Source: a virus. Taken from it: DNA of 23,807 nucleotides. Both the position numbers and the translations under genes were made by a program. The notes beneath the pieces are model-generated. The model worked only from the letters and a program-made list of their open reading frames with translations, had not been told where the DNA came from and searched no databases. Positions 330-18,298 of the stretch are shown here, one piece after another (within the stretch, counting starts at the first letter, position 1; each line of letters opens with the position of its first letter). The stretch lies in the IMG/VR virus record IMGVR_UViG_3300025127_000282, positions 1 to 23,807 of that record. The stretch is one strand, 5' to 3'.

Positions 330-354
330 CAAAGCCTTCTATATAAGGTATGAT
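326..354 (+). promoter_or_regulatory. Sigma-70-type promoter upstream of the glycosyltransferase gene
   Basis: TTGACA (326-331) is a perfect -35 hexamer. A 17-nt spacer separates it from TATGAT (349-354), one mismatch from the consensus -10. Transcription would start near 361, leaving a leader of about 16 nt rich in AAC/ACA before the ATG at 377. The -35 box contains the TGA stop of the preceding gene. Host sigma-70-type promoters in T4-like phages usually drive early or middle genes, so this gene block may be expressed separately from the late operon that follows it. Confidence 0.75.
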
Positions 355-376
355 ATGAACATAACAACAACAAATT

Positions 377-1138: not shown

Positions 1139-1307
1139 TCGTTATACCATTAAGTTAAAGGGAAAGGAGGTCTTTTCCGACTTAACGGCATCTGAATATT
1201 TCGAACGTATGCAAGATTATGCGATTGAATTCTATCAAACAGGACATCCTACCGAAAATGAACTTGAAACTATTATTACAAGGAGTGATTTAAATGGCAA
1301 AGATTAA
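1116..1307 (+). CDS. Small conserved phage protein, 63 aa, function unknown (paralogue of 138-329)
   Basis: The frame is open from 1080, but I prefer the ATG at 1116. The extra 12 residues would lie over the conserved C-terminus of the glycosyltransferase, and the shorter form matches the 63-aa protein at 138-329 in length and motif spacing. The product begins with a short charged tail, then R-Y-T-I-K-L-K-G-K-E-V-F-S-D-L-T-A-S-E-Y-F and an amphipathic helical region ending in polar residues. Y10, I12, L14, K17, F20, L23 and E27 align with Y9, I11, L13, K16, F19, L22 and E26 of the first protein. It overlaps the glycosyltransferase by 23 nt and the next gene by 14 nt, so all three are likely one transcript. 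No function is known to me. Confidence 0.75.
   Translation: MKKQESSDRYTIKLKGKEVFSDLTASEYFERMQDYAIEFYQTGHPTENELETIITRSDLNGKD
1280..1285 (+). promoter_or_regulatory. Strong Shine-Dalgarno site (AAGGAG) of the basic 48-aa protein
   Basis: AAGGAG stands 8 nt before the ATG at 1294 and lies inside the upstream coding sequence. It is the clearest ribosome binding site in the window; most other genes here have weak or no recognisable site. It fixes the start of the small basic gene. Confidence 0.75.
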
Positions 1308-1440
1308 ACAAGGTATCATGGGAGGCACTTATGTTGATGCAATCCCGAAAAAAACTCGTCAAGGAACAGGAAAACACACGAAATACTCGGCAACTTCTCG
1401 TAATCGAGCTCGAAAAAGATACCGAGGGCAGGGAAAATAG
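1294..1440 (+). CDS. Very basic 48-aa protein ending in RGQGK, function unknown
   Basis: The frame MAKIKQG...RYRGQGK runs from the ATG at 1294 to TAG at 1438-1440. It has a strong AAGGAG site and overlaps the preceding gene by 14 nt. Of 48 residues, 8 are Lys and 6 are Arg, with a single acidic residue (D15) and many Gly/Ser/Thr. The C-terminal half (SRNRARKRYRGQG) is almost wholly basic and polar, so the protein is probably disordered until bound to nucleic acid or an acidic protein surface. I recall small proteins with the IPKKTRQG and YRGQG signatures being recurrent in marine T4-like phages near the baseplate cluster, annotated only as hypothetical. A role in nucleic-acid binding or as a small virion component would be plausible but is not shown. 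A terminator follows at once. Confidence 0.85.
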   Translation: MAKIKQGIMGGTYVDAIPKKTRQGTGKHTKYSATSRNRARKRYRGQGK

Positions 1441-1442
1441 AG

Positions 1443-1469
1443 AAAGCACTCATTATTGAGTGCTTTTTT
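1443..1469 (+). terminator. Rho-independent terminator after the small-gene block
   Basis: AAAGCACTCA (1443-1452) pairs perfectly with TGAGTGCTTT (1457-1466) around a 4-nt TTAT loop, and the T-run continues to 1469. It lies 3 nt after the stop of the basic 48-aa gene and ends 15 nt before the late promoter, so it separates the glycosyltransferase block from the baseplate operon. The A-rich 5' flank makes it partly bidirectional in appearance. Confidence 0.85.
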
Positions 1470-1483
1470 ATTGGAAAATCTAG

Positions 1484-1491
1484 TATAAATA
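1484..1491 (+). promoter_or_regulatory. T4-type late promoter (TATAAATA) for the gp25 operon
   Basis: TATAAATA is the consensus late-promoter -10 element recognised by the gp55-type sigma factor in T4-like phages, and no -35 element is needed. It sits in the short intergenic gap between the terminator and gp25, 17 nt before the ATG at 1509, so the leader would be only about 10-12 nt. The same G-TATAAATA string occurs only once more in an intergenic gap, before gp8. Confidence 0.8.
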
Positions 1492-1508
1492 AATAAAAAA
1501 CCTTGTAA

Positions 1509-1910
1509 ATGTCCATTAATAGGGTATCGAGGGCATTTAAAGACATTAGTTTGTCTTTTTCACCTCATCCAGTCACGAAAGACCTACCAGTTATTAAGAA
1601 TGAGAGTGCAATTCGTCGTTCAATTCGTAATATTGTACAAACAATTCCGACTGAAAAGTTTTTTGACTCCGATTTTGGATCTGATGTATACCAAAGTTTG
1701 TTTGGTTTCGTGGATTATGGTACAGCAGCAGTTATTCAAGACCAAATTCAGTCCACAATTCGTAATTATGAACCAAGAGTTGAAAATGTCAACGTTATAG
1801 TGTCTCCAACACCCGATGAAAACTCATTTGAGGCCGTTGTGAGTTTTGATATCATAGGTCAACAGTTTCCGACACAGGAATATTCATTTATATTAGAGAC
1901 AACAAGATAA
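1509..1910 (+). CDS. 25: Baseplate wedge subunit gp25 (GPW/gp25 family)
   Basis: This 133-aa protein matches T4 gp25 (132 aa) in length and in gene order, directly before gene 6. In T4 gp25 sits in the inner baseplate, joins the gp6 wedge core to the sheath and helps nucleate sheath assembly. Sequence support: an N-terminal strand segment with F-S-P-H-P, the helix AIRRSIRNIVQTIP (34-47), the K-F-F-D-S-D-F-G-S-D turn (50-59) in the place of the family's R-x-F-x-P-x-F-G motif, a helix rich in Q/I, and the Y-E-P-R-V segment whose E88-P89-R90 is the conserved EPR motif of gp25/TssE-type proteins. The C-terminal strands (SFDIIGQ, YSFILETT) complete the fold. There is no Shine-Dalgarno sequence. 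It is the first gene after the late promoter and is followed by gp6 after 4 nt. Confidence 0.93.
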   Translation: MSINRVSRAFKDISLSFSPHPVTKDLPVIKNESAIRRSIRNIVQTIPTEKFFDSDFGSDVYQSLFGFVDYGTAAVIQDQIQSTIRNYEPRVENVNVIVSPTPDENSFEAVVSFDIIGQQFPTQEYSFILETTR

Positions 1911-1914
1911 TCAC

Positions 1915-3816
1915 ATGCCTTTTACTAAATTTTCAAACCTAGATTTTGATCAAATTAAGACTTCGATCAAAGATTATCTCAGAGCAAACTCAAATTTCAC
2001 TGATTTTGACTTTGAGGGATCGAATATGTCGATTCTAATTGATACATTAGCATATAATACCTACATTACCTCGTTTAACTCGAATCTTGTCGTAAATGAG
2101 TCCTTTCTCGACTCGGCAACACTGCGTGAAAACGTTGTATCACTCGCAGGTAACATTGGATATACACCTCGTTCAAGAACATCAGCAACAGCACAGGTAA
2201 ATTTAGAACTTTCAATCTCCACAGATACTCCTACAGTCACATTACAACCAGGATTAGTCTGTACTGGGAGTGTGGCAGGATCATCGTACATATTTTCAAT
2301 AGTCGAAAAGGCTACAACGTCAGTTGTGGACGGAATTGCGACTTTTTCGAACCTAAGTATTAATCAGGGAGTCTTTTTAAAGAAAAAATTTCAGTATGAT
2401 GGGTCACTTAATCAAAGATTTATCTTAAATAACCAAAATATCGATACTTCGAAGATTCGAGTATATGTAAGTAATGATTCGGCAGAGTTAGGAATCGAAT
2501 ATTCACCTGTAAACAACATAATTGATGTCCATTCAACTTCAAGAATCTATTTTATACGTGAAGTACAGGATGAAAGATACGAAATTCGATTTGGTGATGG
2601 TATTTTTGGAAAAAAACTTGGATCTGAAGGAGATGCAGACGGAATTTTCATTACGGTTCATTATTTAACGACTGATGGTCTTGATGGAAATGGTGCAGAA
2701 GAATTTGCATTCTCAGGAATCGTTCAAAATCAAAACAATGTTGATGTTTCGATTGAAAGAGTCACTCTAACGACTGTAAATGCCTCTCAGAACGGTGGAG
2801 ATATTGAATCTGTTGATTCTATTAAGTATTATTCACCCTTAACCTACTCGGCACAGAACCGTGCTGTGACTGCAAGGGATTATGAGGCAATAATTCGTAA
2901 TATTTACCCAGACACTGAGTCTGTTTCTGTTGTTGGAGGTGAAGAACTCGATCCTCCCGAATTTGGAAACGTTTTAATTAGTATAAAACCAAAAAATGGT
3001 AATGCAGTATCAAATTTCGACAAATCAAATATATTAGCAAGATTAAAACAGTATTCTGTATCAGGAATTAATCAAAAAATTACTGATTTGAAGATGTTGT
3101 ATGTTGAAATCAATTCAAGTGTTTATTTTAATGATTCTCTTGTCTCAAGTGTGAATACATTGAAAACAAACGTTATCAATAGTCTCACAAACTACTCAAA
3201 ATCATCAAATTTAAATAAATTTGGAGGTAGATTTAAATATAGTAAAGTTTTACAGATTATTGATGATACAGATGAAGCGATTACATCAAATATTACAAAA
3301 GTTACGATTAGAAGAGATCTACAGGCATCTGTAAATCAATTTGCACAATATGAATTATGCTTTGGTAATCAATTTCATGTTGACCCTAGAGGATTTAATG
3401 TTAAGTCTACAGGATTCACGATACCTGGTGAATCGTCAACTGTTTACTTAACTGATGTTCCAAAAGGAGATCTTAAAACTGGAACTCTTGCGATTGTTAA
3501 GTTAATTGATGGTGCAAATTCAAGAGTTATTATTGGAGATGCTGGAATAGTTGATTATGTTAAAGGTGAAGTGATATTAACCACAATTAATATATTATCA
3601 ACAGAAAAACCAAATGATATTATCGAAATTCAAGCTTTTCCAGAATCAAATGATGTGATTGGGTTGAAAGATTTATATCTCTCATTTAGCACATCACAAA
3701 GTACAATAAATATGGTAAGAGACGTAATTGCATCTGGTGATGAAATCTCTGGTGTTAAATTTACCAAAGATTTTTATACATCCAGTTATTCAAATGGAAA
3801 GATAATCAGAGAATAA
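1915..3816 (+). CDS. 6: Baseplate wedge subunit gp6 (baseplate J-like family)
   Basis: The protein is 633 aa, against about 660 for T4 gp6. gp6 dimers form the continuous inner ring of the baseplate that holds wedges together and rearranges on sheath contraction. The N-terminal region (FSNLDFDQIKTSIKDYLRAN, then a long helix with Y-N-T-Y-I-T-S-F-N-S-N) is the usual start of marine gp6 proteins. F-G-D-G-I-F-G at 226-232 followed by G-D-A-D-G-I-F-I-T-V-H-Y is the hallmark of the baseplate J/gp6 superfamily. N-R-A-V-T-A-R-D-Y-E (315-324) is the second conserved block, a helix after the beta domain. The last ~170 residues are strand-rich and less conserved. It starts 4 nt after gp25 and ends 1 nt before the giant gene, so the three are co-transcribed and probably translationally coupled. 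Confidence 0.93.
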   Translation: MPFTKFSNLDFDQIKTSIKDYLRANSNFTDFDFEGSNMSILIDTLAYNTYITSFNSNLVVNESFLDSATLRENVVSLAGNIGYTPRSRTSATAQVNLELSISTDTPTVTLQPGLVCTGSVAGSSYIFSIVEKATTSVVDGIATFSNLSINQGVFLKKKFQYDGSLNQRFILNNQNIDTSKIRVYVSNDSAELGIEYSPVNNIIDVHSTSRIYFIREVQDERYEIRFGDGIFGKKLGSEGDADGIFITVHYLTTDGLDGNGAEEFAFSGIVQNQNNVDVSIERVTLTTVNASQNGGDIESVDSIKYYSPLTYSAQNRAVTARDYEAIIRNIYPDTESVSVVGGEELDPPEFGNVLISIKPKNGNAVSNFDKSNILARLKQYSVSGINQKITDLKMLYVEINSSVYFNDSLVSSVNTLKTNVINSLTNYSKSSNLNKFGGRFKYSKVLQIIDDTDEAITSNITKVTIRRDLQASVNQFAQYELCFGNQFHVDPRGFNVKSTGFTIPGESSTVYLTDVPKGDLKTGTLAIVKLIDGANSRVIIGDAGIVDYVKGEVILTTINILSTEKPNDIIEIQAFPESNDVIGLKDLYLSFSTSQSTINMVRDVIASGDEISGVKFTKDFYTSSYSNGKIIRE

Positions 3817-3817
3817 T

Positions 3818-6800
3818 ATGATACAAACAGGATTTGAAAGTAAAGTTAAAATTCAGGATATAATATCAAATCAACTTCCAGATTTTGTTCTGGATGAAAG
3901 TCCTGAAGCTGTTGATTTTTTAAAACAATATTATATCTCTCAGGAGTATCAAGGTGCACCCACTGATCTCTCTGAAAATTTAGATAAGTATTTAAAACTG
4001 GATAATCTAACTCCTGATGTTATAGTTGATAGTTCAACTACAGTTGGTGTTGTTACAAGTGGTGCTGATGTAATTTATGTTAGTAGTACCAAGGGATTTC
4101 CAAAAGAATATGGACTGTTAAAAATTGATAGTGAAATTATCACTTATACTGGAATTAGTACAAATGCTTTCACAGGATGTATTCGAGGATTTAGTGGAAT
4201 TACATCTTATCATCAATCTTTAAATCAAGAAGAATTAATATTTTCAACATCACAAGTTAACGAACATTTTGATAATACTAATGTTCAAAATTTAAGTGCA
4301 CTATTTCTCAAAGAATTTTACCAAAAAACTAAAAAAACATTTACACCAGGATTAGAAGGGACTGATTTTAATAAAAATATTAATGTTGGTAACTTTATTC
4401 GAGAAGCAAAATCTTTGTATGAAACAAAGGGAACAAATAAATCTTTTGAGATATTATTCAAAGTTCTTTATAATGAAGTTCCAGAAGTTTTAAATTTAGA
4501 AGATAGTTTAATTAAACCATCAAGTGCAAATTACATAGTAAGAAAAATTGCAACTGCAGAACTTATTTCTGGAAACCCTCTTCTTTTAAAAGGTCAATCA
4601 ATTTTTAGATCTAAACTTAATGATACTGATATTAGTGCCTCTGTATCAGAAGTTGAACCTTTTAATCGAGTTGGTATTGGAACTTTCTTCAAATTTAAAT
4701 TATTTGTTGATGATTCAGGATCAATTGATATTTTAAATAACTTTGATATTATTCCAAACACAAGAGTGATTGATCCTGTACCAAAAGGATCTTCAATTAT
4801 TACAGTCGATTCTACCGTTGGATTTGATACCTCAGGAATAATTTTATCAGGTATTAACACAATAACATATACTGATAAAACAGTTAATCAATTTTTAGGT
4901 TGTACTGCAACTAGCACAGGATCATTTGATGCTCCAATTAATCCTACAGATAGTATTAGATCCAATGATTTTTATTTTGGATATGAAAATGGTGATCCAT
5001 CAAAAATAGTCAAACTGAGATTTACTGGTGTCATATCAGACTTTGTACAAACAGAATTAATAACTGTTGATGAGGGTGATATAATATCTGTAAAGAGTAT
5101 TGGTGATAAGGTAACCAATCCTGAACAAGAAAAAACATACAAACAAATATTTGCGAATTCGTGGATTTACAATACTGCATCCTCTTATAATTTAAGTCCT
5201 ACCAGTACTTCAGAATCATTATCTTTTCTAAGTCCACTTGATAGATCAAGTTTAAAAAAAGGTGATCAAGTTGAATTAATTACAGAAAGTGGTACAATTT
5301 TATATCCAACAGATAACAGTGAAGCAACTCCATATGTTTTAGAGGATATTAAAAATGGAGATCAAACAGTAACCTTGGCAAATTTTGGATACAATAAATC
5401 TGTTTTAAATACTTCACTTCGAAGAAAATTACAAAAAGGATTTAGTACCAATATACCAATTGAATTTGATAATTACACTGTCACTAGTGATGTTCAGAAC
5501 GTATATTTTTCTGATGATAATTTTGCTTATGTTGCTTCAAACTCATTGCCAGGAACTAATCCAAGTGTTGATACTGAAAATAATTATGAATCTTTCCCTT
5601 ACAACAAAAAAATTGAAACAAAAATTATTGAATCTTCTATTAATATACAAGCAGGTACAGGAACTTTAACGGATGTTTTTGATTTAGATGAACAAACATT
5701 TTCAACTATAAAATTTAATTCTCCAATTAATTTTCAAACTGGAGATAAACTTCAATATTCATCAATAGGTCAACCATTATCAGGAATTAATACGGGAATT
5801 TATTTTGCTAAAGTATTGAATGGGAATTCAATTCAATTATATGCATCAAATGCTGGAGTTGAAACAGATCAATTTATTCCTCTAGGTATTGGAGATGGGG
5901 CAAATTCTACACATAAATTCACTTTATTTACTCAAAAGTCAGGAATTATTGGTCCTCAAAAACTGTTAAAGAAATTTCCAATACCTTCAAGTCTTGGAGA
6001 TGGTTCAAAAGTAAAAACAATTCCTGGTGGAACAGGAATGCTGATTAATGGTGTTGAAATAAACAATTATAAATCTCTAGATAAAGTTAAATTTGGACCT
6101 ATTGAATCTGTTTCTATATTAAATTCTGGAGAGGATTATGATGTAGTTAATGAACCAAATATTACAATATCTACTGGAGCAGGAATTACAGCACTTGTAC
6201 AACCAGTTGTATCTGGTAAAGTTAAAAATATTAAAATCATACCACAAACGTTTGATGTAGAACAAATTATTTCAATAGGTGTAACTGGTGGAAATGGAAG
6301 TGGATGCGTTTTAGAACCAGTTATAGGTCAAAGATTTAGAGAAGTTACTTTTCAAGCAACAAACTTTACAGATGGTGGTGGTATAAACACATCAACTTCG
6401 GCAGATAACATAGGAAAAATAATATTCAATGAAGATCATAATTTCAATGATGGTGAAACTTTAATTTATGATTCTAATGGAAATACAAACATAAGCATCG
6501 GATCATCAGACTCAACCCTTTCTAATTTTGGTTCATACTATGCAGAAATTATCAATAGTAAAACAGTTAGATTATATGAAACTCCTGAACAAGCTTTAAT
6601 TGGAATACAAACAAGTGCAATTAGATTTAATGGTAAATCTGGTGGTGGTACACAAAAATTTAAAGTAGTACAAAAACAAGCCTTATTAGATGTTAAAGTC
6701 ATTGATGGTGGAAAAAATTATACAAATCGAAAACTTTTTGTTAAACCAACAGGAATATCAACAAATTTTAATACGGTTAATTTTAAAAATCATGGATTTA

Positions 6801-9800
6801 ATAATGGAGATCTAATTGAGTATTCTGCCATAGCAGGTATTGGAAGCACACAACCAACAAATATTACTGGATTATCAACAACTAAAAAATATTTTGTTTT
6901 GAAAGAAAATGATAATTCATTCCAATTGTGTGATGGTGGTGTTGATGGTGCAAATACAGTTAATTTTACAACAAAAAATGTAGTTGGATTTGGAACAACT
7001 TCAGGAACTGGATATCAACAATTTAAATACCCTGATATAAAAGGAACTGTTAGTTTTATACAATCTGGTATATCTACAATTAATGTATCATCGACAGGTG
7101 TAATAAGTCCAAAAACGATAGACATTACCCCAATTGTAAAAGGATCAATAGTTGATACATACCTATATGAAAAAGGAACTGGTTATGGATCTAAAATTAT
7201 TAATCTTGATAAAAAACCATTAGTAACAGTTAAAACAGGAAAGGGTGCTTCTTTACAACCACTTATTTCAAACGGTCAAATTGAGACAGTTAAAATTGAT
7301 TTTGGAGGAAATGATTATTTTTCTTTACCTGATTTAGAAGTAATAGATCCAACTGGAAAAGGAACTGGTGCAGTTTTAACTCCAGTGTTAACAAATCAAA
7401 GAATAAGTAATGTAGTCGTATCAAATCCTGGTATTGGATACTCTACTGATTCTAGTATATTTGTTAAGTCTTCAGGTCGAAATGCAAAATTTGATTTAAA
7501 TATCAGAGAATTAACAATTAACGATCAAAAAAAATTAGGATCAGAACAATTAATTGATACAGAAAATAATTTAAAATACACAGTTTCAGGATATCAACCA
7601 TCACTTTTTGGTGATGATGGAGAAAAAACCTCAGGTATAATCGGATGGGCATATGATGGTAATCCAATATATGGTTCTTATGGATTGACAAATCCTACTG
7701 AATCTCCATCTAACCCCATTTCAGGATTTAAAAGGTTAGAATCTGGATGGAAAAAAGATTCAACATTAGTAGAAGATAGACCAGATGGTTATGAAATTGG
7801 TTATTTCATTGAAGATTATAAATTTGATGATTCTACTGGTGATTTAGATGAACATAATGGTAGATTTGAAAGAACAGAAGATTTTCCAAATGGAATTTAT
7901 GCATACCATGCAATTATTGATGATAAAGCAAATGCAGTATTTCCATATTTTATTGGAGATAGTTATAGATCTTTACCAATAGAAGAAAATTTATCTAATT
8001 TAAATCAATCTAATTTTGATTTTAATTCTTCAAATGTTTTAAGAAATACTTTTCCGTATAAAGTATCAGATAGATTTGCCAATAATGACTTTATAATAGA
8101 GACGAATGAAATAGAAAATCAATCAATTGAAATTCAATCAACAAATGCAGGTTCTGTAGAAAAACTTGACATCATTAATGATGGATCTGATTATAAAGTA
8201 AATGAAATTTTACAATTTGATAATTCAGAAACTAAAGGTAAAGGTCTATCAGCTAAAGTTTCATCAATAAAAGGAAAAACTATAAACTCAATAGAAACAA
8301 CAATCAAGGACTTTGAAAATACTTTAATTACATGGGGTGAAGATAAATTAACTTTTGGTATTTCAACATCAATTACTAATACTTTAAACAATAATGATAC
8401 TGTAAAAATTTCTGGAATTTCCACCAATTTATCAAAAATTAATGGATCTTATAAAATCGGCATTACAACATTTACTACAAATACAATATCTACTATTAGT
8501 GCTTCAGATACTTTAGGTATTACAACAGAAATATATGTATCTAATATTCCAGAATCTGTTTCTATAGGTAGTAGTATAAAAATAGGATCTGAAACTTTAG
8601 AAATTTTAAACAAATATGATGGTCTTAATATATTACGAGTTAAGAGAGGTCCAGTACATTATTCAACTGAATATCCTGAAAGTACAACTGTTGAATTTTT
8701 ACCAAATTCTTTTACAATTAATAAAAAAATTGATTATTTTGAATCTAGTCAAAAGAAAATAATATTCTTTAATCCAGCAGAATCAGTGGGATTAGGAACT
8801 AGTATAGGGTCTTCATATGATGTATCATTTAAATTTGGAAACAATAATGTATCTCGAAACATTCCTGTAAAACAAATTTATATTGAAAATCATCCTTTTG
8901 AAACTAATGATAAACTTAATTTTATTCAATTTGGATCGAATACAATTTCAATTTCTACCGACACAAATCCTGGTACTTTTAATCTACCATCATCGAATCT
9001 TTATGTTGTAAAAAAAGGACAAAATACGATTGGAATTAAAACAGGAATAGGAACAGATGTTTATGGTAATAATTATGAAGAGGTATTTTTCCGTAGTATT
9101 AATTCTGCAAATAGTGACTTATATCGTTTTGAAAGCACAGAAAATATAGAGGTGTCATGTAAAGTTCAACGTATTCAGAGTACAGTTTCTGTCTCAACGT
9201 CTCATGAACTCTCCGAAAAAGATTCAATTACTTTAAATATCAAACCAAACGTGAATTCTGGTATAGGATCAGATGAAAAAGTAATTTTAAAAAGAGATTT
9301 AATCACTGGTAATTTATTAATTAATCCAATTACGTTTGAACCCTCAGATATTGATGTATCTGCTAACACAATTGGAATAAGTACAAATTATTTAAAAACA
9401 GGTGATAAGATTTTATACTCTGGAAGTGCAACTGGTTTATCAACAGGTAATTATTATGTGTATAAAGTTGAGGATAAATTAATAAAATTATGTCAAACTT
9501 CTTTTGATTCTTTACAACCAGTACCAAATGTTATAGAAATAACAGGAACAGGTAGTTCTGGACAAACAATTAGTTTAATAAATCCTGAAATTGAGTCAAT
9601 TACAAATAGAAATTTAATTTTTGATCATACTGATTCGTCCATGGATGGATATGAATTTAAAATTTATTATGATCAAGAATTTAATAATGAATTTGTATCC
9701 ACTGGATCAACATCAGTATTTAATGTTTCAACAGCAAGTTCTATAACAACTATAAACTATACTGATAATTTACCTAAAAAATTATATTACAACTTAAGCA

Positions 9801-12800
9801 AATCTGGATTTATCTCTACCTCCGACACTAATGTATCAAATTATTCTAAAATTTCATATGTTGACAGTGAATATAATGGATCTTTCAATATATCTGGCAT
9901 AGCAGCTACTTCATTTAATATCTTCTTAAAAGATATACCAGAGAGTGAGAGGTATACACAATCAAATTGTGATGTTCTTGAGTATTTTACAAATTCAAAA
10001 ACAGCAAAAGGTCCTATTAACAAAACAAATATTATTTCTGGAGGATCTGGATATCAAAAATTACCTAAGTTTACAGGAACTGGATCAAAGTCTTCTGGAA
10101 GAGATGCAATAATACTTCCAAAATCTAATAATATTGGTAATGTATCTGAAATTAGAATTATAAATCAAGGTTTTGAATTTTCTTCCGATAAAACTTTAGA
10201 ACCAACTGCTTATATTTCACCAATAATTAGATTAAAAGATTCAAATACTGTTGGTGTGGTTACAGTGACTTTTGGTGGAAGAAATTATAATGATCCTCCA
10301 AATATAGTTCTTGTTGATAGATCCACAGGAAAAAAACTTGATAAAGGATTTATACAAGCAAATATGGTAGAAAATTCTATAACTTCTGTGAGTGTTATAG
10401 AAAAACCATATGGATTACCTGATGATACTGTCAGAGTTTTAACAACTAATAATACTAATGGTATTACAATTAGTGAGGTTGATGTTGTATCTGCAACTGA
10501 ATATAATATCACATTAATAACTCCAACATTAGGTTTCCCAAATCCACCATTAACTACAAATGATAAAATTTTTATCGAAGGTATTGAAAAATTTGGAACA
10601 GATGGATCTGGATTTAATTCAGAGGATTTAGGATATAATTTCTTACCAATAACATCAATTATTTCTACAAATCCATTCAAATTTAAAGTTAATGCTGTAG
10701 GTTTAACAACGAATGTTGGTATAGCAGTTACAATACCAACTAAATTTACATCAGTTGTTAAAGAAATTGACTATCCAGTGCTTAACGCAAATCAAGTAAA
10801 AGAGGGATTTGTAAAGGGTGAAACTATTCTCAGAAAAGTAGTCGGAATTCTTACTGATGTTGTTTCAGATATTAAAATTACAGACAGCAGTACTAATACT
10901 ATTAAAGTTTCTGGAATAGATGTTGATAGTTTAAATGTAAATGATATTATTATTGGTAGAACTTCTGGAAATGTTGCTACAATTTCAAATATTACTAATA
11001 ATTTAGGAAGATATAAAGTAAACTTTTCATCTACAAAAAATATTGGATGGTTTGATGATATTGGAAAATTAAATCTTGATACTCAAGTAATTCCAGATAA
11101 TGATTATTATCAAAATTTATCTTACTCTGTTAAGAGTTCTATTGAATGGAATGAATTACAAACACCTGTCAATAACTTATTACACACTAGTGGACTGAAA
11201 AATTTTGCAGATACTGGTATTACTTCAACGAGTAATATTGGAATTGGATCAACATCAGTTATAACATCAATTAATGACATTATTGAGGCACAAAGAGTTG
11301 ATGCTATCAATGATCTTGATTTAGTTTCTGATAAGGATGTATTAAGTGATGGTGTTGCAAGATTAATTGATTTTAAAAACATAACATTATCAGACTTCAT
11401 AAAGTGTAATACTAATGATGTATTTTTAATAGACAATATCAACAAACAGTTTTCTAATTTAGAAGATAATTTGAACTTATTTGTAGATGTTCTTCAAGTA
11501 CCAAATAGTGGTGAGTATACTAATTTATTACTTAAAATTACAAACAATAGTTCGGTAGGTATTACAACACAAATTCAATTATCAGAAATAGTTGTACTTA
11601 ATCGAGATGATGCAGGTGTTGATAATAATCAAAACCCAAATGTATTGTTAGAAAAATATCAAGTAATAAATTCTGGAACTGAATATCAATCTTTTGAAGA
11701 AGATAGATTTGGATCTTTTAACTTGTTTAAAGATCCTGATACCAATATTACTACTTTAAGATTTACTCCTAATGAAAAATTTAATACTGATTATAATATA
11801 AAAGTTCTTCAAAGTAGTTTTACAAATTTTGTTTCTGCAGCATCGAGTGTAAATATCGGTCCGATTAATAGCAATGCTTTTATTGGAACTTTTGCAAGTG
11901 AAACTACAAGTGAAATATTGACAATATCAACAAATGAAATCAATTCATTTTTTGTTAATTCTCAAATAGTTGATAATCTAACAGGAGCATCAAATTTTGT
12001 AGAAAATTACGTTACACATGACGGTCAGAATACTTACATTGCAGAGGCATATATTGATTCCAAAGATTCATCTTTATCAGACAGTAGAATAGGAATTCTA
12101 ACTGCAACTTTATCTGGACAAACATTATCATTTAAATACGAAAATAACTCTCCAAATGTTGTTACTGTTAGATCTAGAATTATCGGTTTTGGAGATCCTG
12201 ATATTGGTATTGGTACATATAGATTTAAATCTCCAGATCAAATAGATGGATCTGAAAGATCTCTTATATATGAAGGATTTGCACGTAGTGGTGTTGGCAC
12301 AACATCTGTTGTTGATTTAAATTCAAGTTTATTTGATGGAGTTAAATCCTTAATCGAAGTTAATTCAACCACTGGTGCAAGAGCAGTTCATGAAGTTTTA
12401 TCTGTTAGAGATAGTCAAGGTGTTTATGTTCAACCAGCTCAATATTTAAGTGGAGATGGTAATTTAGGATTAGGAACTTTCGGTGGTAATATTAATGGTA
12501 GTAATTTTGAAGTTCTATTTTATCCAGATGATTTAGTGGGTGTTACCACAGTGTCAGTATTTAATCAAGGTTTTTATAAAGATTTTGATAGGTTTAATGT
12601 TGCAAATTCTCTTAATTATGGTGATGCTTTAACAGAAGACACATTCTTCAAATTATATAATGCAATTAATGGTGAAAGAGTTAATAGAAAAGATTTTCAA
12701 TTAAGAACTAATAATGTTCCAATATTTTCTAAAACATTTAATCCAAGTTCAGTTTCATTATCGGCAACCACAGGTACTTTCAACATTGATAATCATTTCT

Positions 12801-15800
12801 TTAGGACAGATGAAGAATTAATTTATACTCCAGAATCAACAGTGATTGGAATAGGTTCTACTGCAATTCAATATAAGTCATCCACAGGAGCTATGGAAGA
12901 ATTACCTTCCACAGTTTTTGCTATAAGAGAAAATGATGACAATTTCCAAATTTCAACTACAAAATCTGGAACAGCAGTTACATTTACAGGTTTAGGAGAA
13001 GGAAATAGACATAAATTTACAATGGCAAAGAGAAATGAAAAATCTTTGATTACAATTGATGATATTATTCAATATCCAGTATCACCTAGTACAGTAAATT
13101 ACAATTTAGAGAATAATATTGGTGGAGAAATAGGAATTTCAACAAATATTATTTCTTTGAGTGGAATTTCTACAATTAATGCAGATGATATTCTTAAAAT
13201 TGAAAATGAGTTTGTGAGAGTTGTAGATATTGGTTTTGGAATTACCACGTATGGACCTATAGTGCCAGGATTGCCAGAAACTGGTAATTTCTCACTTGTA
13301 AAAGTTCAAAGGGGTTCTGTTGGAACTTCAGTATCCGCACATTCTGATGGAACACAAGTTGAGAAATTTAAGGGATCTTATAACATTGTTGATAGCACTG
13401 TACATTTTCTTGATGCACCTAGAGGAAATCCCGATGTTCAAGTAACTTCTAGTGGTTTACTACTTGACACATCAGAATTTCAAGGAAGAGTTTTTCTTCG
13501 AAATGACTATGGTAGTAATTTAATATTTGACGACGTATCAAATAGTTTTAATGGAATAACAACTTCATTTACTTTAACTGTTGGTGGTGCAAATACAATA
13601 GGTATAGGAACTAGTGGTGGAAATGGAATTTTGATGATTAATGGAATATTCCAAACACCCTCAACAGACAATAACCCAAGTAATAATTTTAAAATTATAG
13701 AATCTGGTAGTGGTGCAACTGGTATAACTTCCGTCGTATTTTCTGGTATAACTTCTGTTGGCACTGGTGACATAGTTATAGATCCTACAGATATTAACAA
13801 TAATGACTTACCAAGAGGTGGTATTCCAATTTCATTTGGATCTACAACTGGATTGGGTTATGCACCCCTCGTAGGTGCCCGTGTAAGGGCAGTCTTAGAT
13901 GGTGGTGGTGGAATCACAACACACGTAGGTGTTGCGACAACTGGATCTGCTCTAGCTATCTCTACTGCCAATTATAATAATAACACAGGAATTCTATCAA
14001 TTAGAACAGTAGATGAACATAATATTAAGTTTAGTGATCCAAATGTTGATGAAGTTAAATTAGTGGGATTAGAGTTTGATTGTCCTCCAGGACATGCTGG
14101 AATAACTACTACAATATTCCCAGACGGAACAATTGGAGATAAATTTGCAATTGTTGGAACAGGTGTTGGTATTGGATCAACAAATGAAATCAGAGTTAAT
14201 GTTGGTACTAGTACAATTCCTCATAGTTATGTTGGATCTGGAACTGCATTCCCTTGGTACGGTCATTTAACACTAGGTTCTGGTTATAACAATATAATTT
14301 CTATTGGAGTTACTATAAGTGATCCTACAGGATCAAATGCAAGAATTACTGCAACACCGAAACAATATAACACTCATTCATTTGATGTTGCAAATAGTAG
14401 TTTAAACAATAGTATTTCAAAAAATTCTTTCTCAGGATTAACATTTACACCATCAGGAGCAACATATGCACCAGATACTGGTTTACTAGTATTATCATTT
14501 GCAACTGCTCATGGCATTAATGGTAGTGACACAATTGGTATTAAAACTGGAAGTCTAGCATTTAGATGTTCTCAAGATGATTTCAATAGTCTACATTATT
14601 ATCCAAGATCTACAGATCCAGTTGCAGGTGTTCAAACATCAGTTTTATCATTTACAACTAATACTCTAACTGTTGATGTTGGAAAGTCAAATGTTAATAC
14701 TGGTGGAGCACTAGAATTTACAGTTGAGGACAGTGGTTCAGGATATACAGATCCAGAAATATATGTAACTTTACCTTCATATGAAAATTTATCTGTTAGG
14801 GGAATATCTAGAGTTGGTTTAGGATCAACCTCTACCACTGGAACTGGACTACTCGTAACTCCTGTTGTTTCTGCAAGTAGCACTACGGGAATAGGTTCAG
14901 GATTTTTTGAATTCACCCAATTTAATCAAAATAGATCTGGATATGCCTTTGAAAGAGGTGATGTATTCCAACCAGTTGGATTAGTTACTGATAGAAGATT
15001 ATATAAACCATATAAAGAAGCTACAGTAGAAATTGAAAGAGTTTACAAAGATGATTTCTGCATGTGGCAGTTTGGTGAATTAGATTTTCTTGATACAATT
15101 AAAGGTTTGCAAAATGGATCAAGAACTAGATTCCCATTAAAATATAATGGATTACCAATTACACTTAAGTTAGATCCTGAGTTAGACAGTAGTCTTGAAA
15201 GTTTATTGTTGGTTGTTATTAATGGTGTTATTCAAGAACCAAATGTAGCATACGAATTTATCGGATCAGGATCTATTAACTTTAAAGAACCATTAGATCC
15301 TTCTGCAGATGTTGCACTTTATTTCTACAAAGGAACTGATAGTGTTGATAGTTTTGTTTCTACAGGAACTACAAGTATTTTTGAATTAGGTGATCAAGTT
15401 CAAATCATAGGTAACTCTCAATTAGGTGGTCAAGAAAAAAGAAGAATTAAATCTTTAGACACAGAAAGTAGTTTAGAAACAATAATTTATACAGGATCTG
15501 GAATTGATACAACAGGTACAATCAACAGACCAATAAAATTATTAAAACAAAAAGAGGATGTTGTAATTGATAATATATTAATTTCCAAAAAAAGAAAGAA
15601 TCTAGAACCTATAGTATTACCAACTGCAAAAATTATTGGTGATTTTACAACAGGTGATAATGTTCTTTATCTTGATAATGCAGAATTATTTGATTATGAA
15701 AAAATTCCAGCTGGATCAAATTTAATTTTTGGAAATGCAATTGTTTCTGGAAAACCCATAGAAACTGCAGAAATATCTTCAGTTGTTTCTGCTGCTGGAA

Positions 15801-16654
15801 CAGTTCAGTTCCTTAATATTGTTAATCCAGGCATTGGTTACACAGTTGGAGCAGCAGTAAGTATAACAATAGGTGCACCAATTGGTGTCAGTGTTGGAAA
15901 TGTAAGCAGAGACCAATTTGCCACTGCAGGAGTGTCTACCTTTGCTTCGGCAACTGTGACTGTTGGTGCAGCAGGTACAATAGAATCAGTAAATATTACT
16001 AATCCTGGTTTAGGATACTCACAAACAAATCCACCAAGAGTCATTATAGAGTCTCCACAGTCTGATGAAGAAATTGTCACATCTGCTGACGTAGGAATTG
16101 TTGTCCAATCTACAGCAGGAATACTTACAGGAATTGGTACCACTACCATAGGATCAACTTTAGGTATTAAATTTATAGGAATTAGTACAATTACTACAGG
16201 TGCTGGAAGTTTTGATGCAATTGAAGTTGGAAAACCAATTTACATTTACAATACTGGTGTTGGTGCAGGATTGACATCCATGGATTTAACTGGTATTCAT
16301 ACAGTTGGTATTGGAACTCAATTTGTTGATAATATATACACTGTGGCAGAATTTACAACTAGAGGTAGTGCACCTTCAGTAGTTGGAATTATTACATGTG
16401 CCATAGAATCTAATACAAACATAATTGGTATTGCTGCCACAGCTGGAATTGACTCTGATGAGCAAGTTGGTAATTATTCACTTGGAGTATTATCAAATAT
16501 TGTTAGATCTACTTCAATGGAAAAACGTATTTCAATTGGTGTGACTGGATTAACTGTAGATTCTGGTTTATCAACCTTCCCAACTATACAACGAAGAGGT
16601 ATTAATGGAGATGATACTTTGAGACAAACTGGTGGTTTGGAAACACCTATTTAA
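3818..16654 (+). CDS. Giant modular baseplate wedge protein, gp7-type N-terminus (4278 aa)
   Basis: One uninterrupted frame encodes about 450 kDa and occupies the place of T4 gene 7 (1032 aa) between 6 and 8. Residues ~1-250 contain E-A-V-D-F-L-K-Q-Y-Y and, at 202-220, Y-E-T-K-G...LFKVLYNE, which I recognise as the wedge segment in the C-terminal part of T4 gp7. Downstream lie repeated beta modules: four of type A (71-133, 320-380, 1558-1632, 3104-3184), six of type B (628-704, 864-951, 983-1071, 1682-1772, 1846-1925, 2985-3071), two of type C (3381-3435, 3542-3604) and about a dozen G-x-G-Y strands. Also present are a YHYH-like domain (1276-1385), a conserved DYYQ...HTSG segment (2427-2468) and two fibre-like motifs (3224-3311, 3744-3839). 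There is no signal or membrane segment. Large structural proteins at this locus occur in other marine T4-like phages. The gp7 assignment of the N-terminus is likely; the roles of the remainder are unknown. Confidence 0.88.
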   Translation: MIQTGFESKVKIQDIISNQLPDFVLDESPEAVDFLKQYYISQEYQGAPTDLSENLDKYLKLDNLTPDVIVDSSTTVGVVTSGADVIYVSSTKGFPKEYGLLKIDSEIITYTGISTNAFTGCIRGFSGITSYHQSLNQEELIFSTSQVNEHFDNTNVQNLSALFLKEFYQKTKKTFTPGLEGTDFNKNINVGNFIREAKSLYETKGTNKSFEILFKVLYNEVPEVLNLEDSLIKPSSANYIVRKIATAELISGNPLLLKGQSIFRSKLNDTDISASVSEVEPFNRVGIGTFFKFKLFVDDSGSIDILNNFDIIPNTRVIDPVPKGSSIITVDSTVGFDTSGIILSGINTITYTDKTVNQFLGCTATSTGSFDAPINPTDSIRSNDFYFGYENGDPSKIVKLRFTGVISDFVQTELITVDEGDIISVKSIGDKVTNPEQEKTYKQIFANSWIYNTASSYNLSPTSTSESLSFLSPLDRSSLKKGDQVELITESGTILYPTDNSEATPYVLEDIKNGDQTVTLANFGYNKSVLNTSLRRKLQKGFSTNIPIEFDNYTVTSDVQNVYFSDDNFAYVASNSLPGTNPSVDTENNYESFPYNKKIETKIIESSINIQAGTGTLTDVFDLDEQTFSTIKFNSPINFQTGDKLQYSSIGQPLSGINTGIYFAKVLNGNSIQLYASNAGVETDQFIPLGIGDGANSTHKFTLFTQKSGIIGPQKLLKKFPIPSSLGDGSKVKTIPGGTGMLINGVEINNYKSLDKVKFGPIESVSILNSGEDYDVVNEPNITISTGAGITALVQPVVSGKVKNIKIIPQTFDVEQIISIGVTGGNGSGCVLEPVIGQRFREVTFQATNFTDGGGINTSTSADNIGKIIFNEDHNFNDGETLIYDSNGNTNISIGSSDSTLSNFGSYYAEIINSKTVRLYETPEQALIGIQTSAIRFNGKSGGGTQKFKVVQKQALLDVKVIDGGKNYTNRKLFVKPTGISTNFNTVNFKNHGFNNGDLIEYSAIAGIGSTQPTNITGLSTTKKYFVLKENDNSFQLCDGGVDGANTVNFTTKNVVGFGTTSGTGYQQFKYPDIKGTVSFIQSGISTINVSSTGVISPKTIDITPIVKGSIVDTYLYEKGTGYGSKIINLDKKPLVTVKTGKGASLQPLISNGQIETVKIDFGGNDYFSLPDLEVIDPTGKGTGAVLTPVLTNQRISNVVVSNPGIGYSTDSSIFVKSSGRNAKFDLNIRELTINDQKKLGSEQLIDTENNLKYTVSGYQPSLFGDDGEKTSGIIGWAYDGNPIYGSYGLTNPTESPSNPISGFKRLESGWKKDSTLVEDRPDGYEIGYFIEDYKFDDSTGDLDEHNGRFERTEDFPNGIYAYHAIIDDKANAVFPYFIGDSYRSLPIEENLSNLNQSNFDFNSSNVLRNTFPYKVSDRFANNDFIIETNEIENQSIEIQSTNAGSVEKLDIINDGSDYKVNEILQFDNSETKGKGLSAKVSSIKGKTINSIETTIKDFENTLITWGEDKLTFGISTSITNTLNNNDTVKISGISTNLSKINGSYKIGITTFTTNTISTISASDTLGITTEIYVSNIPESVSIGSSIKIGSETLEILNKYDGLNILRVKRGPVHYSTEYPESTTVEFLPNSFTINKKIDYFESSQKKIIFFNPAESVGLGTSIGSSYDVSFKFGNNNVSRNIPVKQIYIENHPFETNDKLNFIQFGSNTISISTDTNPGTFNLPSSNLYVVKKGQNTIGIKTGIGTDVYGNNYEEVFFRSINSANSDLYRFESTENIEVSCKVQRIQSTVSVSTSHELSEKDSITLNIKPNVNSGIGSDEKVILKRDLITGNLLINPITFEPSDIDVSANTIGISTNYLKTGDKILYSGSATGLSTGNYYVYKVEDKLIKLCQTSFDSLQPVPNVIEITGTGSSGQTISLINPEIESITNRNLIFDHTDSSMDGYEFKIYYDQEFNNEFVSTGSTSVFNVSTASSITTINYTDNLPKKLYYNLSKSGFISTSDTNVSNYSKISYVDSEYNGSFNISGIAATSFNIFLKDIPESERYTQSNCDVLEYFTNSKTAKGPINKTNIISGGSGYQKLPKFTGTGSKSSGRDAIILPKSNNIGNVSEIRIINQGFEFSSDKTLEPTAYISPIIRLKDSNTVGVVTVTFGGRNYNDPPNIVLVDRSTGKKLDKGFIQANMVENSITSVSVIEKPYGLPDDTVRVLTTNNTNGITISEVDVVSATEYNITLITPTLGFPNPPLTTNDKIFIEGIEKFGTDGSGFNSEDLGYNFLPITSIISTNPFKFKVNAVGLTTNVGIAVTIPTKFTSVVKEIDYPVLNANQVKEGFVKGETILRKVVGILTDVVSDIKITDSSTNTIKVSGIDVDSLNVNDIIIGRTSGNVATISNITNNLGRYKVNFSSTKNIGWFDDIGKLNLDTQVIPDNDYYQNLSYSVKSSIEWNELQTPVNNLLHTSGLKNFADTGITSTSNIGIGSTSVITSINDIIEAQRVDAINDLDLVSDKDVLSDGVARLIDFKNITLSDFIKCNTNDVFLIDNINKQFSNLEDNLNLFVDVLQVPNSGEYTNLLLKITNNSSVGITTQIQLSEIVVLNRDDAGVDNNQNPNVLLEKYQVINSGTEYQSFEEDRFGSFNLFKDPDTNITTLRFTPNEKFNTDYNIKVLQSSFTNFVSAASSVNIGPINSNAFIGTFASETTSEILTISTNEINSFFVNSQIVDNLTGASNFVENYVTHDGQNTYIAEAYIDSKDSSLSDSRIGILTATLSGQTLSFKYENNSPNVVTVRSRIIGFGDPDIGIGTYRFKSPDQIDGSERSLIYEGFARSGVGTTSVVDLNSSLFDGVKSLIEVNSTTGARAVHEVLSVRDSQGVYVQPAQYLSGDGNLGLGTFGGNINGSNFEVLFYPDDLVGVTTVSVFNQGFYKDFDRFNVANSLNYGDALTEDTFFKLYNAINGERVNRKDFQLRTNNVPIFSKTFNPSSVSLSATTGTFNIDNHFFRTDEELIYTPESTVIGIGSTAIQYKSSTGAMEELPSTVFAIRENDDNFQISTTKSGTAVTFTGLGEGNRHKFTMAKRNEKSLITIDDIIQYPVSPSTVNYNLENNIGGEIGISTNIISLSGISTINADDILKIENEFVRVVDIGFGITTYGPIVPGLPETGNFSLVKVQRGSVGTSVSAHSDGTQVEKFKGSYNIVDSTVHFLDAPRGNPDVQVTSSGLLLDTSEFQGRVFLRNDYGSNLIFDDVSNSFNGITTSFTLTVGGANTIGIGTSGGNGILMINGIFQTPSTDNNPSNNFKIIESGSGATGITSVVFSGITSVGTGDIVIDPTDINNNDLPRGGIPISFGSTTGLGYAPLVGARVRAVLDGGGGITTHVGVATTGSALAISTANYNNNTGILSIRTVDEHNIKFSDPNVDEVKLVGLEFDCPPGHAGITTTIFPDGTIGDKFAIVGTGVGIGSTNEIRVNVGTSTIPHSYVGSGTAFPWYGHLTLGSGYNNIISIGVTISDPTGSNARITATPKQYNTHSFDVANSSLNNSISKNSFSGLTFTPSGATYAPDTGLLVLSFATAHGINGSDTIGIKTGSLAFRCSQDDFNSLHYYPRSTDPVAGVQTSVLSFTTNTLTVDVGKSNVNTGGALEFTVEDSGSGYTDPEIYVTLPSYENLSVRGISRVGLGSTSTTGTGLLVTPVVSASSTTGIGSGFFEFTQFNQNRSGYAFERGDVFQPVGLVTDRRLYKPYKEATVEIERVYKDDFCMWQFGELDFLDTIKGLQNGSRTRFPLKYNGLPITLKLDPELDSSLESLLLVVINGVIQEPNVAYEFIGSGSINFKEPLDPSADVALYFYKGTDSVDSFVSTGTTSIFELGDQVQIIGNSQLGGQEKRRIKSLDTESSLETIIYTGSGIDTTGTINRPIKLLKQKEDVVIDNILISKKRKNLEPIVLPTAKIIGDFTTGDNVLYLDNAELFDYEKIPAGSNLIFGNAIVSGKPIETAEISSVVSAAGTVQFLNIVNPGIGYTVGAAVSITIGAPIGVSVGNVSRDQFATAGVSTFASATVTVGAAGTIESVNITNPGLGYSQTNPPRVIIESPQSDEEIVTSADVGIVVQSTAGILTGIGTTTIGSTLGIKFIGISTITTGAGSFDAIEVGKPIYIYNTGVGAGLTSMDLTGIHTVGIGTQFVDNIYTVAEFTTRGSAPSVVGIITCAIESNTNIIGIAATAGIDSDEQVGNYSLGVLSNIVRSTSMEKRISIGVTGLTVDSGLSTFPTIQRRGINGDDTLRQTGGLETPI
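5699..13030 (+). repeat. Type B module: six copies of a ~80-90-residue unit
   Basis: Copies are at 5699-5929, 6407-6670, 6764-7030, 8861-9133, 9353-9592 and 12770-13030. The shared order is I/V-x-F/I-x-x-x-H-x-F-x-(T/N)-(G/N)-D-x-L-x-Y, a Gly/Ser-rich loop, then (Y/L)-(Y/F)-(V/A)-x-(K/E) and (N/D)-x-(F/I/V)-(Q/R/K)-L, a longer loop, and a terminal (H/Q/Y)-K-F or Y-R-F strand. Copies 2 and 3 are adjacent, with about 30 residues between them; the others are dispersed, and one loop per copy varies in length. The pattern predicts a compact beta domain duplicated within the protein. DNA identity between copies is low, so the duplications are old. Confidence 0.7.
7643..7972 (+). other. YHYH-type domain inside the giant wedge protein (residues 1276-1385)
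   Basis: The segment starts G-W-A-Y-D-G-N-P-I-Y-G-S-Y-G, continues through an acidic middle, and reaches L-D-E-H-N-G-R-F (from residue 1343), then D-F-P-N-G-I-Y-A-Y-H (H at 1364) and F-P-Y-F-I-G. This is the signature order of the YHYH family, found mostly in secreted and surface proteins of bacteria and in marine phage structural proteins. The biochemical role of the family is not established. Tyr/His/Asp-rich clusters make metal or glycan binding conceivable, but nothing here shows it. Confidence 0.75.
13487..15334 (+). repeat. Fibre-like beta motif, two divergent copies near the C-terminus
   Basis: Copies lie at 13487-13750 (residues 3224-3311) and 15047-15334 (3744-3839). Each has a substrate-like opening (x-G-I-T-T-S-F-T-L or N-G-S-R-T-R-F-P-L), then a hydrophobic strand ending in I-N-G-(I/V)-(F/I)-Q-(T/E)-P, a loop of 10-15 residues, and a closing strand (VVFSGI or INFKEPL followed by VALYFYKG). 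The (F/I)-x-N-G-V-x-Q-x-P element is common in phage tail-fibre and needle proteins and usually forms a small beta-sandwich. It suggests that the C-terminal quarter is exposed at the baseplate edge, which is inference. Confidence 0.55.
13958..14629 (+). repeat. Type C module: two copies (13958-14122 and 14441-14629)
   Basis: Both copies begin with a Y-x-x-x-T-G-(I/L)-L-x-(I/L) hairpin, followed by x-x-H-(N/G)-I, a polar turn, a V-x-L/I-x-x-(G/S)-L-(E/A)-F-(D/R)-C strand, and a loop ending in I-F-P-D-G or Y-P-R-S-T-D-P. The single cysteine in each (FDCPPG, FRCSQD) is at the equivalent position. Cysteine is rare in this protein, so its conservation between copies supports homology. Related units are familiar to me from long marine phage structural proteins, without a known function. 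Confidence 0.6.
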
Positions 16655-16687: not shown

Positions 16688-18298
16688 ATGCCCGCGATAG
16701 TAACAGATCAATTTAGAATATTAAATGCAAGTAATTTCATAGAATCTATTGAAAATGAAAATAATTCTTACTATGCATTTTTAGGATTGGCAAATCCAAC
16801 AGAAGGTGGTGGAGCCGATGGTTCAGGAGTTGGGATTGGAAGAAGTAGTACTTGGAATGATAATACGGATACTAGTGTTCCATCACCAATCGATAATTTA
16901 CAGTATAGGACTCTTTATCGAGATACTTCACTTTTTGCGAAAAAGATAACATCATCAAATGTTAGAAGAGTTGTTAAAAAACATGATTGGATAGCAAATA
17001 CCAAATACGATATGTATCGTCATGATTATAGTGTAAGTAAAAACCCTGCACCTGGTGGAGGTTCTGGATTATACAACACAAATTATTATGTTATAAACTC
17101 AGATTTTAGAGTTTATATTTGTATTGATAATGGATCATCTGGTGACTTGGTAGATGGTAAGGGTTCTTTAGATGAACCAACTTTTACAGATGTGGAACCA
17201 TCTGCAGCTGGAACACAAGGTGATGGTTATATTTGGAAATATTTGTATACTGTTTCACCAAGTGATATTGTAAAATTTGATTCCACTGAATACATTGTAC
17301 TACCAAGTAATTGGTCAACTTCAACGGATTCTCAAATTCAAGAAATAAGAGAATCTGGCAATTCTGACATATATAAAAATCAAATTAAAAAAGTTTATAT
17401 TAAAAATGGTGGTGTTAATTACACTGCAGGAAAAACTGAAATTTGTAATATTCTTGGAGACGGAACTGGAGGAAAGGTACAAGTAGAAACAGATAGTAGT
17501 GGTAAAATTATCAATACTGTAATAACTGCTGGAGGATCAGGATATACTTTTGGAGTTGTAGACTTATCTCCACTTAGAGGAAGTCCAACAATTCCTGCAG
17601 AGTTAATACCAATTATCCCTCCATCTAAAGGTCATGGATTTGATATCTACTCTGAATTGGGAGCAGATAAGGTATTAGTTTATGCTAGATTTGATGATTC
17701 AACAAAAGATTTTCCGACTGATACGCATTTTGGTCAGGTTGGGATTATAAAAAATCCTCAATTATTTGATTCTACAGGAATATGTACTAGTAATACTTAT
17801 TCATCTTTAAATTCTGTTATGTTAACAGATACTGCTCTTAATGAAATATCTAACACTCCAGCTCTCGTTGGTGTAGCAATAACACAAACTGTTGCTGGTG
17901 GAGTTGCAAAAGGATACGTTGCATCATTTGATAGAGAAACTAAAGTTTTAAAATATTTTCAAGACAAGTCTCTATACTTTCCAAATGCTGTTGATCATAC
18001 AGATAATAAAAATGTTGTAACAGACTCACAAGTTTTGAGTTTTTCAAATTCTAATCAAATTAAAGCAACATCAGTAGGTGGTGGATCAGGTTTTGAGGTT
18101 TCTGTTAACAGTAATTTTTCTGGATTTTCAACTTCCGTCAATAACAAAAATGTCAATTTGGGTGTTAGGTTTGAAAATGGACTTGCAAATCCTGAGATAA
18201 ATAAAAAGACAGGTGAAATAATTTACATTGATAACCGTAAAGAGGTTGAACGTGATTTAAGACAAAAAGAAGACATTAAAATCATTCTGGAATTCTAA
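16688..18298 (+). CDS. 8: Baseplate wedge subunit gp8, enlarged
   Basis: The 536-aa protein has both ends of T4 gp8 (334 aa). The N-terminus A-I-V-T-D-Q-F-R-I matches gp8 A-I-V-T-S-K-F-R, and the C-terminus G-E-I-I-Y-I-D-N-R...I-K-I-I-L-E-F matches G-E-M-I-Y-M-E-N-R...I-N-I-L-F-T-F of T4 as I remember it. Between them, P-x-x-x-D-N-L, R-V-V-K-K-H-D-W (T4: I-P-R-R-D-W), G-D-G-Y-I-W-K-Y-L-Y (near 178-187; T4: G-D-G-Y-V-W-E-Y-L-F) and T-E-Y-I-V-L-P are conserved. In T4 gp8 forms dimers at the outer wedge, bound to gp7, gp6 and gp10. An insertion at about 236-296 holds two G-x-x-Y strands (KNGGVNYTAG, TAGGSGYTFG) like those of the giant neighbour. It starts behind its own late promoter with a weak ribosome site and ends 5 nt before the next gene. 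Confidence 0.92.
   Translation: MPAIVTDQFRILNASNFIESIENENNSYYAFLGLANPTEGGGADGSGVGIGRSSTWNDNTDTSVPSPIDNLQYRTLYRDTSLFAKKITSSNVRRVVKKHDWIANTKYDMYRHDYSVSKNPAPGGGSGLYNTNYYVINSDFRVYICIDNGSSGDLVDGKGSLDEPTFTDVEPSAAGTQGDGYIWKYLYTVSPSDIVKFDSTEYIVLPSNWSTSTDSQIQEIRESGNSDIYKNQIKKVYIKNGGVNYTAGKTEICNILGDGTGGKVQVETDSSGKIINTVITAGGSGYTFGVVDLSPLRGSPTIPAELIPIIPPSKGHGFDIYSELGADKVLVYARFDDSTKDFPTDTHFGQVGIIKNPQLFDSTGICTSNTYSSLNSVMLTDTALNEISNTPALVGVAITQTVAGGVAKGYVASFDRETKVLKYFQDKSLYFPNAVDHTDNKNVVTDSQVLSFSNSNQIKATSVGGGSGFEVSVNSNFSGFSTSVNNKNVNLGVRFENGLANPEINKKTGEIIYIDNRKEVERDLRQKEDIKIILEF

Follow-up and report, generated by a model that had tools for sequence, protein, structure and literature searches.

A giant protein between gp6 and gp8 of a marine T4-type phage is probably a gp7 wedge core with a long C-terminal extension

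The window analysed here is the whole of the IMG/VR record IMGVR_UViG_3300025127_000282 (23,807 nucleotides), which probably represents part of one T4-type phage genome; its last gene is cut by the contig end. The order gp25-gp6-giant gene-gp8 was found in the window as well as in complete genomes (Table 1). As claimed in a first-pass annotation made from the DNA letters, the giant gene lies at the place of T4 gene 7, where an intact open reading frame with an ATG start, 4,278 codons and no internal stop was confirmed between gp6 and gp8. Positions 377-1138 of the window code for a 253-aa protein of phrog_1574 (function unknown) that weakly matches a glycosyltransferase family. In the last third of the giant gene (12818-16654), the GC content rises from ~0.28 to 0.32-0.35.

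Table 1. Genes of the window and parts of the giant protein (positions are those of the window; residues are those of the giant protein).
Feature	Positions	Strand	Evidence
gp25 (sheath initiator)	1509..1910	+	PF04965, phrog_261
gp6, expected core-bundle partner	1915..3816	+	PF21379 5e-18, phrog_219 1.6e-194
Giant protein, probable gp7-type baseplate wedge protein, 4,278 aa, 461.9 kDa	3818..16654	+	intact ORF, full-length phrog_2885, dN/dS ~0.22
N-terminal helical segment, residues 1-66	3818..4015	+	collinear with T4 gp7 helical domain (PF21428, T4 643-689)
Beta module inserted in the putative gp7 core, residues 72-158	4031..4291	+	alignment, AlphaFold2; recurs as M1
KGT helix region, residues 190-224	4385..4489	+	diagnostic match to T4 gp7 727-758
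Beta region, residues 225-310	4490..4747	+	aligned to start of T4 gp7 domain V (PF21427), within the longer alignment only
C-terminal extension with recurring modules, residues 311-4278	4748..16651	+	no T4 gp7 match
YHYH domain (PF14240), C-terminal half, residues 1268-1367	7619..7918	+	E 2e-20
M4 repeat copy 1, residues 3382-3463	13961..14206	+	
M4 repeat copy 2, residues 3546-3623	14453..14686	+	
Conserved C-terminal region, residues 3624-3961	14687..15700	+	43.5% identity to S-SRM01
Conserved C-terminal tip, residues 4131-4275	16208..16642	+	42% identity to S-SRM01
gp8	16688..18298	+	PF09215, phrog_438
VrlC-type protein with DUF4815, cut by contig end	18304..23805	+	unlike gp7, hhalign 0.4%

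The integrity of the giant frame was examined by comparison with its relatives. The phrog_2885 profile was matched end to end (residues 2-4260 against positions 2-4178 of 4179; 3,169 bits). P-SSM2 gp7 (YP_214343, 5,195 aa, phrog_2885), encoded in the same gene order, is collinear with the giant over nearly its full length at 36-39% identity, and the 3,895-aa homologue of S-SRM01 is collinear as well. The homologous IMG/VR locus L006 shares 83% identity with the giant; its alignment over 3,589 codons gave a dN of 0.10 and a dS of 0.46, hence a dN/dS of ~0.22, and the gene is therefore under purifying selection. The full-length profile match, the collinear homologues and the dN/dS value together show that the frame is no assembly accident.

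The N-terminus of the giant was compared with T4 gp7 (1,032 aa). The motif named in the first-pass annotation was indeed present, with Y-E-T-K-G...LFKVLYNE at residues 201-220 corresponding to FYSTKG...LFKVLYNE at 734-754 of T4 gp7. A single-sequence phmmer search against the PDB listed gp7 as the sole sequence (E 0.37), and a profile of 72 sequences placed two gp7 sequences on top (E 0.0034 and 0.0049). The signal strengthened with the broader alignment: a 98-sequence core-only profile searched against 177,635 PDB sequences gave 9f4a (E 3e-5) and 5hx2 (E 2.2e-4) as top matches, both of them gp7 proteins, followed by a third match with E = 1. Comparison by hhalign with six gp7 sequences gave 88.8% and 94.6%. 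In a control run, the real core profile scored 67.6, while 60 column shuffles did not exceed 23.5, the reversed profile reached 16.6 and seven other T4 baseplate proteins remained at or below 17.2. When pieces of the giant were compared with gp7, a match was obtained in residues 1-330 and none elsewhere. The Baseplate_wedge model PF23786 was matched by 63 of the 98 core members, and two bridge families (phrog_17744 and phrog_26741) match T4 gp7 plus either the giant or the HTVC008M protein, at corresponding positions. A gp7 profile match at the N-terminus, whose lack the earlier annotation would have held against its assignment, was thus found, and on the strength of these sequence comparisons the N-terminus of the giant very probably represents the gp7 core.

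The matching region is short, with 29-70 firm residues and ~180 when extensions are included. The firm alignment links giant residues 193-273 to T4 gp7 727-796, and longer hhalign alignments link 193-310 to 727-821; it is only within the latter that residues 225-310 fall on the start of domain V. With the inserted beta module (64-150) removed, the alignment began as early as residue 11, opposite T4 644, where the T4 helical domain starts; this further reach was not significant by itself. The N-terminal helical segment by itself obtained an hhalign probability of 1.6%, T4 644-674 being aligned only jointly with the KGT region, and a Pfam search of the giant returned no match to the gp7 helical domain (PF21428). 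No piece of the giant contained a counterpart of the first ~640 residues of T4 gp7 in hhalign. The Pfam models of domains V and VI did not match the giant either, domain V being aligned in part by hhalign. Residues 1-600 and 1-310 were modelled with AlphaFold2 at mediocre confidence (pLDDT 69.5 and 68.6); both models were mostly beta outside the N-terminal helices, which were placed at 6-19, 22-27, 29-44 and 51-59 (pLDDT ~46-70). Foldseek returned no significant match of these models in the PDB; ranks 2 and 7 were chains 9f4a_A0 (1,031 residues) and 5iv5_BJ (1,004 residues), the lengths of which fit gp7, and their scores (E 0.009 and 0.046, TM 0.14) are not significant and suggestive only. A hit to ORC1_wHTH at the N-terminus stayed below the cut-off of the model and was taken as chance. 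Since the ~640 N-terminal residues and domain VI of T4 gp7 were not found, the giant appears to consist of a gp7 core to which a new extension has been added C-terminally, and not of a whole gp7; the gp7-type N-terminus proposed earlier holds for the core (T4 ~727-796) and not for these two parts.

The T4 gp7 model phrog_964 was matched in six of nine complete marine isolates (P-SSM2, S-SKS1, Syn9, P-HM1, S-SSM7 and S-SSM4) and in one IMG/VR genome, each time once and in this gene only, and gave no match at all in S-SRM01, HTVC008M and Sf-CH8. A separate canonical gp7, which would have spoken against the assignment, was accordingly not detected with phrog_964 in the complete marine relatives, the window being a 23.8-kb fragment of its own genome. 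In the literature, gp7 is said to be absent from cyano- and pelagimyophages, where it 'appears to be substituted' by VrlC (PMC7029224, 2020), and it has been listed among the non-cyanophage core genes (Sullivan 2010). A five-sequence VrlC profile showed no similarity to gp7 (hhalign 0.4%), and VrlC was rejected as a gp7 substitute on this ground. The core match and the restriction of the phrog_964 matches to this gene argue against the absence of gp7 and its replacement by VrlC, and the sequence data rather favour the older GenBank labels, such as that of P-SSM2 gp7. The family has thus been annotated before, including the 5,195-aa version of P-SSM2 as gp7; new are the tested mapping of the core, the two sites of expansion, the history of fission and fusion, and the opposite placement of the periphery.

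Members of the family differ strongly in length, from 1,016 aa in HTVC008M over 4,446 (P-HM1), 4,878 (Sf-CH8), 6,076 (Syn9) and 6,619 (S-SZBM1) to 6,932 aa in S-SSM4 (L209:18111-38909), the largest among the proteins examined at this gene position. Copies of the M4 repeat, which number from 0 to ~16 in the relatives, account for part of these differences; the P-SSM2 protein exceeds the giant at least partly through more M4 repeats (11 matches versus 2). The Syn9-type proteins (phrog_701; Syn9, S-SSM4 and S-SZBM1) resemble the giant in following gp6 and in having the same core and a YHYH domain. Unlike the giant, they carry ~500 additional residues within the inserted core region that holds its beta module, and the genes after them encode a connector of gp9/gp10 type (phrog_677) and a protein of phrog_708. 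An N-terminal match of ~1,090-1,215 nt, where ~795 is usual, suggests that five further loci (L061, L062, L069, L070 and L081) also hold additional inserted sequence in or close to the core. Gene 55 of HTVC008M (phrog_3465) has the same place and N-terminal core as the giant, but its extension has only ~700 residues and YHYH was not found in it. This protein (L087:19626-22676) and phrog_3465 are labelled 'head closure Hc2', and several later HTVC008M genes 'baseplate wedge initiator'; all these labels look wrong.

In S-SSM7 (L089:19986-39080), the giant corresponds to a pair of genes that are separated by the gene of a gp9/gp10-type connector; the products of the pair have 3,007 and 3,001 aa and cover residues 9-3139 and 3159-3955 of the giant. 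The second gene opens with the N-terminus of the phrog_708 protein, a separate protein in Syn9. This shows that parts have been exchanged between the giant and separate proteins of the periphery. The homologous genes of S-SKS1 (L003:19992-32384) and of L048 (8780-19572) lie in overlapping frames with three breaks and one break, respectively, at differing sites, which may reflect sequencing errors or real frameshifts.

Three module families recur in the giant, with 4, 6 and 12 copies as counted with module HMMs, in addition to the two-copy M4 repeat. The beta module inserted in the core belongs to family M1, further copies of which lie at residues 325, 1557 and 3117. The first-pass annotation had described ~4000 residues of repeated beta modules; modules do recur, but they cover roughly one third of the extension, the remainder being not recognisably repetitive. 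A comparison of eight giants showed the YHYH region to be conserved in every one of them. A zinc hydrolase function has been predicted for YHYH (PMC7824862); in contrast, the region aligned to residues 1251-1385, which corresponds to the matched C-terminal YHYH half, contained no invariant His across the eight giants. The YHYH domain of the giant thus more likely serves for binding or as a structural element. A lectin domain was found in the Syn9 giant and a sub-threshold carbohydrate-binding match in that of P-HM1. A match of residues 4170-4273 to the MshB deacetylase (E 6e-4) was discarded as probably driven by composition.

One member of the family has been detected in virions: S-SZBM1_208 (6,619 aa) was identified with 71 peptides and 13.5% coverage (PMC9146016). 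Its sequence was checked here, and the protein lies between gp6 and gp8 and is homologous to the giant. The N-terminal adaptor domain common to T4 gp9, gp10 and phrog_677 was found in Syn9, S-SSM4, S-SZBM1 and S-SSM7. Searched at one sensitivity, it was not found in S-SKS1, S-SRM01, P-HM1, Sf-CH8 and HTVC008M, nor was it detected in P-SSM2, where only other segments were matched. A literature search yielded no baseplate structure of a marine T4-type phage and no structure or stoichiometry for any marine gp7. Six copies of the giant would amount to 2.77 MDa (461.9 kDa x 6), so the earlier figure of 2.7 MDa is correct as arithmetic, one copy per wedge being an assumption.

The Vibrio phage XM1 offers a structural comparison. 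There, a 242-aa gp7 orthologue (gp17) and two gp6-type chains together make up the core bundle. Six spikes are attached at a loop within the gp17 core domain and six at its C-terminus; according to the authors' proposal, the pull on the spikes is transmitted through the gp7-type unit to the sheath (PMC10457771). Judged from this description, gp17 is a small gp7 core with two attachment sites that resemble the two expansion sites of the giant family. In XM1 separate spike proteins are bound at both sites, whereas in the giant the extra sequence lies inside the chain. Marine gp7s have gained sequence inside the core and at the C-terminal end, seemingly at the two sites used in XM1, and the simplest reading would be that material held non-covalently in XM1 has become part of the chain in marine gp7s.

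Taken together, we propose, with a probability of about 0.75, that the giant represents gp7 in a marine, Kyanoviridae-like phage of the T4 type, a core of residues ~1-310 being followed by a beta-rich C-terminal extension of ~4,000 residues serving as outer baseplate and/or host-contact arm. The conserved core would begin with the helical segment, continue through the inserted beta module to the KGT helix region and run into domain V. By homology, it would form a (gp6)2-gp7 heterotrimer beneath gp25 and be part of the chain passing the host-contact signal to the sheath. T4 gp7 shares the core (~727-796, or ~644 to ~821 in the extended alignments), but it has no inserted beta module and its periphery is N-terminal (residues 1-640), that of the giant being C-terminal. 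Since the giant has no counterpart of T4 1-640 and the Pfam models of domains V and VI do not reach it, the core seems to have been extended N-terminally in T4 and C-terminally in marine phages. In the giant, the T4-style N-terminal periphery would be absent; the chain would instead leave the core on its C-terminal side and run on for ~4,000 residues, comprising beta modules that recur, one half of a YHYH domain and a tract of repeats that varies. This extension probably forms the periphery or a host-contact arm, most likely an outer baseplate and/or fibre-like structure that carries or makes the host contacts and is covalently tied to the wedge. A takeover of host-contact or peripheral functions is plausible, considering the YHYH and lectin domains of the family and the adaptor not being detected in P-SSM2-type phages. 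More tentatively, the gp7 chain of P-SSM2-type phages could form most of the periphery, replace the gp9/gp10-type adaptor and couple glycan contact covalently to the core bundle, its length being set by repeat number and by fission and fusion.

Other explanations of the giant were weighed against this one. It could be a fibre or adhesin that borrows a gp7-like anchor, the structural work of gp7 being done by another protein. Most of its length is indeed extension, whose modules vary in copy number, lectin and YHYH domains occur in the family, and the 6,076-aa homologue of Syn9 is annotated as 'putative fiber'. Such a protein would leave the role of gp7 to another gene, but the phrog_964 search of the relatives revealed no gp7-like gene besides this one, and VrlC, the proposed substitute, has no similarity to gp7. 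Furthermore, the first 300 residues are 90% identical to L006, more than any block up to residue 3300. This explanation is therefore considered unlikely. A second alternative follows the published statement (PMC7029224), with gp7 truly absent and replaced by VrlC, which would make the KGT motif a coincidence or a generic baseplate motif. Although the sequence match is short and Sullivan 2010 counts gp7 among the non-cyanophage core genes, the profiles single out gp7 among the PDB sequences and the T4 baseplate proteins tested, the shuffled profiles are clean, and both the gene order and the nil similarity of VrlC to gp7 point the same way. The absence of gp7 is thus disfavoured and appears very improbable.

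An erroneous fusion of separate genes during assembly or annotation might be suspected from the broken frames of S-SKS1 and L048 and from the two genes of S-SSM7, but it is refuted for practical purposes by several independent homologues that are single ORFs of 3,895-6,932 aa, by the presence of the 6,619-aa homologue in virions and by the purifying selection on the giant.

Cyanobacteria and SAR11 are hosts to T4-type phages that abound in the sea, and literature and databases disagree on whether these phages possess gp7. A gp7 core at the start of a protein of 1,000-7,000 residues would be one answer, with which VrlC is no longer needed as a substitute. Coliphages and marine phages would then have added to the same wedge core at opposite ends, and the assignment points to the region in which a structure would reveal how marine T4-type phages sense their hosts.
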